64,000 nucleotides of DNA from Albimonas donghaensis (GTDB taxonomy: Bacteria > Pseudomonadota > Alphaproteobacteria > Rhodobacterales > Rhodobacteraceae). A program made the position numbers and the translations under genes. Under the pieces are notes generated by a model. It worked only from the letters and a program-made list of their open reading frames with translations, searched no databases and was not told the origin of the DNA. Positions within the stretch are counted from its first letter, which is position 1; each line of letters starts with the position of its first letter. Below, piece by piece: positions 16,692 through 61,484 of the stretch. The stretch is from positions 744,001 through 808,000 of the forward strand of contig NZ_FNMZ01000001.1 of the NCBI RefSeq assembly GCF_900106695.1, given 5' to 3'.

Positions 16692-16726
16692 AAAAAGGCC
16701 CCGGACCTTGCGGTCCGGGGCCTTTT
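16692..16726 (-). terminator. Bidirectional-looking terminator after rne
   Basis: 11-bp stem (GGCCCCGGACC 16697-16707 with GGTCCGGGGCC 16712-16722) flanked by AAAAA on the left and TTTT on the right. It reads as an intrinsic terminator for rne on the minus strand, about 25 bases after its stop. Confidence 0.85.
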
Positions 16727-57631: not shown

Positions 57632-58488
57632 GCGTGCTGCGCGCAGGCCTCATCCAGACCTGCGCGGGCGACGTGCCGGCGGAGAACCTCGCGCAGACCT
57701 CGGCCCTGATCCGCGAGGCGGCGGCCGAGGGCGCGCAGCTCTGCCTCACGCCCGAAGTGACCAACATCGTCACCTTCTCGCGCAGGCTGCAGGCCGAGAT
57801 CCTGCGGACCGAGGACGAGGACCCGAGCCTCGCCGCCTATCGCGACCTGGCCGCCGAGCTTGGGCGCTGGCTGCTGATCGGCTCGCTGGCGCTGAAGGCG
57901 GAGGACGATCCGGGACAGGCGCGGCCGCGCTTCGTGAACCGGTCCTTTCTCATCGACGCGTCGGGCGGAATCGTCGCGCGCTACGACAAGATCCACATGT
58001 TCGACGTGGAGGTGGGGGAGGGCGAGAGCTACCGCGAATCCGCCGCCTACCGTCCCGGCGAACGGGCCGTGGTCGCCGACACCCCCTGGGGGCGGATCGG
58101 CATGACCATTTGCTACGACCTGCGCTTCCCCGCGCTCTACCGCGCGCTGGCCGAGGCGGGGGCGGAGATCCTGACCATCCCCTCCGCCTTCACCCGGCCC
58201 ACCGGCGCCGCGCACTGGCATGCGCTTTTGCGGGCGCGCGCCATCGAGACCGGCTGCTTCGTGCTGGCCCCGGCCTCCACCGGCGAACATCCGGTGATCG
58301 CGGCCGCGGGCGGGCGCGTGCGGCAGACCTACGGGCACGCGCTGGCGGTCGATCCCTGGGGGGCGATCCTGTCCGATAGCGGCGAATCGGTCGGGGCGAG
58401 TCTGGTCGATCTGGATCTGTCCGAGGTTGCGAAGACCCGGGCGCGCATCCCCTCGCTGGCCAATGCCCGAGGGTTCGCCGCGCCTTGA
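57628..58488 (+). CDS. Carbon-nitrogen hydrolase (nitrilase/NIT2 family)
   Basis: A 286-residue omega-amidase-like hydrolase from GTG 57628, overlapping grxC (GTGA). The catalytic triad is visible: Glu43 (CLTPEVTN), Lys121 (RYDKIHMFD) and Cys162 (TICYDLRFP). The YDKIHMFDV and CYDLRFP signatures are those of the NIT1/NIT2 branch, whose known substrates are deaminated glutathione or alpha-ketoglutaramate. Sitting next to grxC, a deaminated-glutathione amidase role fits, but that is inference. Confidence 0.9.
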   Translation: MSVLRAGLIQTCAGDVPAENLAQTSALIREAAAEGAQLCLTPEVTNIVTFSRRLQAEILRTEDEDPSLAAYRDLAAELGRWLLIGSLALKAEDDPGQARPRFVNRSFLIDASGGIVARYDKIHMFDVEVGEGESYRESAAYRPGERAVVADTPWGRIGMTICYDLRFPALYRALAEAGAEILTIPSAFTRPTGAAHWHALLRARAIETGCFVLAPASTGEHPVIAAAGGRVRQTYGHALAVDPWGAILSDSGESVGASLVDLDLSEVAKTRARIPSLANARGFAAP

Positions 58489-58629
58489 CGCAACGGCCTC
58501 AAGGACGGGCGCGGATGTTCCGTTTTGAAACGGAGCCGTTGTCGACAGAAATCCGGATGACGTGAACGGAACCTGCGTTTCGCATGCCGAAATTGTTGAC
58601 AATGGCGCTTCTGACTCTCATGTTAATCA

Positions 58630-58834
58630 TAAGGCGTTCATAGGAAGGGCGGCATACCCAGCCCCGGCTCCCCAGGCCACATCCCTTCCATTGAGCGTCG
58701 TCGCAATCTCCTGGTGTTCAGCCAGGGCTGCGTGGTGCGTAGGGACAGCCGGTTCGCCGGCGCGTGTGTTCAAGTCCCAGACGGTGCAAACCGTTCGGCC
58801 GCGGGGGCGCCCCACCCCCGCGGTCTTGCATTTT
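58630..58834 (+). ncRNA. Candidate structured non-coding RNA
   Basis: About 200 bases with dense secondary structure and an intrinsic terminator. Helices seen: GGAAGGG/CCCTTCC (58643-58649 with 58683-58689); CCTGG/CCAGG (58710-58714 with 58722-58726); GGGAC/GTCCC (58742-58746 with 58774-58778) enclosing GCCGG-TTCG-CCGGC (58748-58761); ACGGT-GCAA-ACCGT (58781-58794); then the terminator. A TTGACA at 58596 lies at the right distance upstream, though the -10 is weak. I tested it by eye against 4.5S, 6S, tmRNA, RNase P RNA and tRNA patterns and found no match, so the family is unknown. The 5' end is approximate. Confidence 0.45.
58799..58834 (+). terminator. Intrinsic terminator of the ncRNA candidate
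   Basis: Perfect 9-bp stem CCGCGGGGG/CCCCCGCGG (58799-58807 with 58815-58823), 7-base loop, then TCTTGCATTTT. It is too far (over 300 bases) from the nitrilase stop to be an obvious terminator for that gene. Confidence 0.75.
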
Positions 58835-58938
58835 CGGGGACCCTTCCAGCCGCATCCCTTGACCTGCACGCGTGGACCAGCCGGGCCTCACGCGCCCGCG
58901 GGGCGGCGTCGGTATTCCCGCATCGCATCGCTCGGGGC

Positions 58939-58969
58939 TTGACCTTCCCGTGACTGGAACCCCTATCTC
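58939..58969 (+). promoter_or_regulatory. CueR-controlled copA promoter
   Basis: TTGACC (58939-58944) and TATCTC (58964-58969) are 19 bases apart, the overlong spacing diagnostic of MerR-family activated promoters. The spacer holds the dyad ACCTTCC-N7-GGAA, close to the CueR operator. The regulator gene is encoded at the end of the same operon. Confidence 0.85.
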
Positions 58970-58995
58970 GGGGGCGTCAGTCACAGGAGCGCGCC

Positions 58996-61484
<2,489 letters not shown>

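Follow-up and report, generated by a model that had tools for sequence, protein, structure and literature searches.

The interval 58630-58834 of the window, which is the whole 64-kb stretch of DNA analysed here, is best read as a putative sRNA gene, intergenic and independent, about 204 nt long and confined to the species or its lineage, and we consider this reading rather probable. It is preferred because the predicted fold is strand-specific, the terminator-like hairpin is directional, a -35 element is well placed, the sequence is non-coding, and the gene downstream appears to have a promoter of its own. The preliminary description of this DNA had also proposed an independent sRNA, and in that respect it stands on the fold, the terminator-like hairpin and the -35 element, whereas the weight it placed on tetraloops is unsupported. 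The intergenic region (58489-58995) follows the 3' end of a nitrilase-type carbon-nitrogen hydrolase gene, whose stop is at 58488, and precedes a copper-type P-type ATPase gene and then a MerR-family regulator gene (Pfam assignments). We take the ATPase gene to be copA and presume the name CueR, or CueR box, for the motif at 58938-58969. The putative RNA lies on the same strand (+) as the nitrilase gene, and about 160 nt separate its terminator-like hairpin from copA, also on that strand. The features of the locus are the following.

58596-58624, + strand: putative promoter, predicted from the sequence, with -35 TTGACA (58596-58601), a 17-bp spacer and a weak -10 CATGTT (58619-58624)
58631-58834, + strand: putative sRNA of about 204 nt, with a strand-specific fold (z -3.25) and non-coding composition
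58633-58699, + strand: 5' domain, a closing helix of 8 bp and 7 bp bearing two short hairpins with C-rich loops (z -4.41)
58702-58732, + strand: second hairpin of the predicted fold, loop GUUCA (z -1.73)
58742-58777, + strand: third helix of the predicted fold, GGGAC/GUCCC around a GCCGG-UUCG-CCGGC hairpin (z -1.52)
58780-58795, + strand: GACGGU-GCAA-ACCGUU hairpin of the predicted fold (z -2.85)
58797-58834, + strand: intrinsic terminator-like hairpin, 11-bp stem (one G-U), 7-nt loop, tail TTGCATTTT (-25.2 kcal/mol)
58938-58969, + strand: CueR-type promoter motif of copA, outside the RNA

Fold and boundaries of the candidate RNA

The minimum-free-energy fold of 58630-58834 has an energy of -97.4 kcal/mol and a z of -3.25, a value equalled by 1 of 200 shuffled sequences, and the signal belongs to one strand (z -3.38 on the + strand versus -0.44 on the - strand, 100 shuffles each). 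Most of this signal is due to the 5' domain and the terminator hairpin. The 5' domain, taken as 58630-58702, gives z -4.14 on the + strand and -0.45 on the - strand (the value of -4.41 listed above stems from separate domain-by-domain scoring), removal of the terminator (58630-58796) leaves z -2.04, and the middle region 58700-58796, which holds the UUCG and GCAA hairpins, reaches only -1.35 by itself. Therefore, these two hairpins are not the unusual part of the structure. All five helices named in the preliminary description are present in the minimum-free-energy fold, but its characterization of the tetraloops as exceptionally stable does not hold, since the UUCG loop is closed by G-C and the GCAA loop by U-A; the extra-stable context of UUCG is C(UUCG)G. 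Two loops of the 5' domain are almost entirely open in the fold, AUACCCA (58654-58660) with an unpaired probability of 0.97 and CCCCA (58670-58674) with one of 0.99, and in the modelled structure they are the likely seed regions of the putative sRNA. Further unpaired stretches of at least four nucleotides are ACAT, GUUCA, UUCG and GCAA.

The background for these values was drawn from 205-nt stretches taken every 200 bases on both strands of the window, with 40 shuffles each. A z below -3.25 was found in 9 of the 437 stretches scored (638 were planned), and in 3 of 202 stretches between 43601 and the end of the window, a set that may overlap slightly with the 437. About 2% of local stretches thus fold as strikingly, so the structure is suggestive and not proof: the candidate lies in roughly the top 2% locally, which is notable and not exceptional.

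At the 5' side, the perfect -35 hexamer TTGACA has four occurrences on the + strand of the 64-kb window and one on the - strand, and CATGTT, at a spacing of 17 bp, shares three of the six consensus bases of a -10 element. From the position of the -35, the start would be expected near 58631, just 5' of the first helix. A consensus pattern scan of the region returned no sigma-70 promoter at its threshold. The GC content dips to 0.48 over 58550-58649, with surroundings of about 0.7, and the TTGACA in AT-rich upstream sequence that was described previously is indeed found there. The word TTGTYGACA is present in twin copies at a distance of 54 bp, 58539-58547 and 58593-58601, and the latter copy overlaps with the -35 box. 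An inverted repeat, TCCGTTTTGAAACGGA (58519-58534), with 7-bp arms, a 2-bp centre and no T tail, lies in the interval from the nitrilase gene to the putative promoter and could be an operator.

At the 3' side, the stem of the terminator-like hairpin spans 58797-58825. It had been described as a 9-bp terminator with a T-rich tail; the stem is borne out, with 11 pairs including the one G-U, but the tail is interrupted. The intrinsic terminator of the putative sRNA itself is recognizable by sequence pattern only. Three places in the window, 16696 (on both strands), 50636 and 58797, have an uninterrupted stem of at least 11 pairs (G-U allowed) with a T-rich tail; six single strands obtained by shuffling the window have none. 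A permissive terminator scan of 58400-59050 gave one site, where shuffled sequences average 0.6; it is by stem length only that the hairpin stands out. Elsewhere in the window, 16695-16724 forms a strong bidirectional terminator-like hairpin with a stem of 12-13 bp and T-rich tails on both strands.

Coding capacity, known RNA families and distribution

The protein-coding reading of 58630-58834 is rejected on codon-position GC and family searches. In all six frames GC by codon position is flat (0.60-0.71), compared with values of 0.71/0.54/0.91 for the nitrilase gene and 0.78/0.57/0.94 for copA, and six ORFs in or around the region lack any Pfam match at E <= 1. Searched against 60 other genomes, the - strand ORF of 80 aa gave nothing at E <= 0.01. 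For the 126-aa ORF on the + strand, weak local matches appear in 8 of these 60 genomes (E 1.5e-4 to 0.0097, 23-51% identity), one of them (E 0.004) in the congener G002; they cover different stretches of the query, three of the eight contain internal stops, and they are taken as chance or composition matches, so this ORF is not regarded as a gene.

Nor does the region belong to a known RNA family. The covariance-model comparison with Rfam that the preliminary description had proposed (Rfam 15, 4227 models, scores at or above gathering) gave no match in the window, the RNase P RNA and SRP RNA models included; a permissive search of 58490-58990 yielded three matches at E 5.9-9, which are taken as chance; and ARAGORN found no tRNA or tmRNA gene in the window. 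The riboswitch and known-family readings are rejected accordingly. Three of the earlier statements are confirmed by the results of this section and by the motif upstream of copA, namely that the six frames look non-coding, that the RNA fits none of 4.5S, 6S, tmRNA, RNase P RNA or tRNA, and that the next gene has its own promoter. The suggestion of a housekeeping RNA is not sustained, as searches of two congeners and of the family, order and class samples found no homologue, and the tmRNA and a 6S-like RNA of the same genome lie elsewhere. The alpha_tmRNA is at C16:1162984-1163360. The 6S-like RNA (L088, genome G000, C12:711072-711229) is matched over the full length of the model with 42.7 bits (E 5.2e-7), which is 3.7 bits under the Rfam cut-off of 46.4, and judged by its sequence it is the probable 6S RNA of this genome. 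Given this full-length match below the cut-off, the Rfam 6S model possibly performs poorly in this group.

The distribution of the sequence was followed in four genome samples (relatives, family, class and order), which overlap and each include the genome of the window; in the last three, two first-look candidates were scored per genome. Among 61 relatives the DNA search found the window itself and a 22-nt match in G060; among 385 genomes of the class (E <= 1e-4) and 390 genomes of the order (E <= 5e-4) it found the window itself only. At E <= 0.001 there is one copy in the window genome itself. A one-sequence covariance model reaches little further than BLAST. Such a model (R1), made solely of two overlapping rows of the window sequence, recovered from 61 genomes its own copy and, at E 0.018, the same place in G060; this place belongs to an open frame of 540 codons whose GC by position resembles that of coding sequence, and the match is rejected as chance.

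In the family sample, matches at E <= 0.1 occur in 101 of 394 genomes (own genome included), nearly all shorter than 45 nt and the longest about 70, the best besides the window having an E of 0.00228. Several fall on a word around AGGGCGGCATACCCAGCC, for which 15 places were inspected, 12 fetched from the family search and three from earlier loci. Thirteen gave the match again (L102 and L107 gave none at E 0.05), and 11 of the 13 lie in long open frames: five share one recurrent protein frame (L096, L097, L098, L104 and L106) and six belong to other open frames, 255-576 codons long (L040, L044, L099, L100, L101 and L103). L047 looks intergenic and has an ordinary fold (z +0.93), and L105 is of neither kind for certain. 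In view of the open frames and the ordinary fold, these short matches are rejected as homologues and regarded as chance words. A pattern scan of a genome collection gave two matches, L033 and L034 (the latter judged coding by eye), and one of viral contigs gave none, both among records that may leave out those very near the window genome; the same reservation applies to the 72,556 plasmid and 50,697 phage records, which held no match.

Genomic setting and rival readings

The setting was compared with that in two congeners (G001 and G002). Both have the nitrilase gene, at 78 and 79% identity, and by eye both retain the glutaredoxin and ComF-like genes upstream of it, whereas the gene after it differs from that of the window. 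Their copA, at 70% identity, is located on a contig other than that of the nitrilase gene and, by eye, follows a different upstream gene, while sharing the CueR-type promoter motif with the window. Nitrilase gene and copA thus adjoin in the window genome and not in these two congeners, and the putative RNA sits within the junction. Nitrilase downstream sequence was read at ten loci (L004-L013) besides that of the window and copA upstream sequence at six (L057-L062); the RNA sequence is absent from the nitrilase 3' regions and the copA upstream regions of both congeners. The CueR-type motif is found at the expected position and strand in 8 of the 11 copA-homologue loci tested, which indicates that copA is probably promoted separately. 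The first 13 nt of this motif (58938-58950) are repeated with 85% identity at 58858-58870, 80 bp upstream. Within copA, 60586-60621 is a perfect sixfold GACGGC repeat coding for (Asp-Gly)6, a possible slippage site; runs of at least four GD or DG units are absent from the 11 copA-homologue loci of other genomes (L057-L067).

What else could this sequence be? It could be the 3' UTR and terminator of a glutaredoxin-nitrilase operon, possibly giving rise to a processed 3'-UTR-derived sRNA. The nitrilase gene lies on the same strand, no stem with 8 or more pairs and a T-rich tail intervenes between its stop (58488) and 58797, and 3'-UTR sRNAs with an RNase E-made 5' end and a 3' terminator are reported for Rhodobacter sphaeroides in the available part of PMC8625941. 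Such a UTR would have to be about 345 nt long, though, the TTGACA and the AT-rich stretch stand directly upstream of the RNA, and the nitrilase gene of both congeners does without such a 3' region, and we regard this origin as unlikely. We give a similarly low probability to non-functional intergenic sequence at a rearrangement junction, with a chance fold and only the terminator real. The want of a convincing homologue in any sample searched, the separate contigs of nitrilase gene and copA in both congeners and the local stretches that fold equally well agree with it; against it speak the strand bias, the z below -4 of the 5' domain, and a terminator and -35 that are correctly ordered and spaced.

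A cis-acting leader or attenuator of copA, in which read-through of the terminator would add copA expression from an upstream promoter, would suit a terminator-like hairpin some 160 nt upstream on the same strand. It is very improbable, as the CueR-type promoter motif of copA lies downstream of the terminator, the RNA sequence is missing upstream of copA in both congeners, and no Rfam riboswitch matches.

Known sRNAs and a possible mode of action

In the available parts of the two published accounts, 8 of 16 confirmed sRNAs of Paracoccus denitrificans are conserved in other alphaproteobacteria and the other half are without sequence conservation in related bacteria (PMC5107571), and 38 of 79 sRNAs of Rhodobacter sphaeroides are classed as orphan by genomic origin, with 20% coming from 3' UTRs (PMC8625941). 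By its sequence the window organism appears to be close to both genera, and as far as these portions go, a species-restricted intergenic sRNA is therefore ordinary in the group. The candidate resembles the orphan sRNAs presented there (StsR of Rhodobacter sphaeroides, PMC8625941; those of Paracoccus denitrificans, PMC5107571) in intergenic position, predicted structure and terminator, and, as is often the case for such RNAs outside close relatives, it has no homologue in the samples searched. It differs in being known from sequence alone: the likeness is one of description, sequence comparison having been made with Rfam, where it has no match. UdsB, UdsC and other 3'-UTR sRNAs of Rhodobacter sphaeroides, in the same part of PMC8625941, likewise lie downstream of a same-strand gene and end in a 3' terminator, whereas the candidate has a promoter-like -35 directly upstream.

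On the side of the loops, the candidate shares accessible C-rich hairpin loops with another group of RNAs. Certain alphaproteobacterial sRNAs carry a C-rich motif of the CCUCCUCCC type in loops, which pairs with ribosome-binding sites, and C-rich loops are typical anti-Shine-Dalgarno seeds. The loops of the candidate are AUACCCA and CCCCA and not CCUCCUCCC, and no homology to sRNAs of that type was found.

The most likely reading of the putative RNA is that of a trans-acting sRNA. Transcription would run from the sigma-70-like promoter (58596-58624) to the intrinsic terminator (58797-58834), and in the resulting RNA the two C-rich loops would be exposed by the rigid 5' domain; these could pair with G-rich stretches such as the Shine-Dalgarno regions of target mRNAs. 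Such pairing, probably with Hfq, would alter the translation or stability of the targets. No convincing target emerged when duplex energies were computed for nine start regions of the window, in a test of low power for which the starts were hand-picked, some of them uncertain, and accessibility was ignored. The best ranks, perm1 (5%) and ABC1 (7%), are unremarkable among nine tests. A link to copper through pairing with the copA start is rejected on the same test, in which 93% of shuffled sequences pair at least as well with that region.

Nothing about the candidate suggests an RNA of a new class. It is quite improbable that the compact twin-seed 5' domain, in which a stem of 8 and 7 bp carries side by side two hairpins with loops of the CCCA type, is a new architecture of a recently arisen lineage-specific regulatory RNA born where copA was joined to the nitrilase operon in this species. 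The sRNA is plausible, and it is not remarkable until a transcript is seen. If it is transcribed, it would add one more species-specific sRNA and might be a useful example of an sRNA born recently where an intergenic junction was rearranged, because both congeners keep the neighbouring genes without the RNA sequence.
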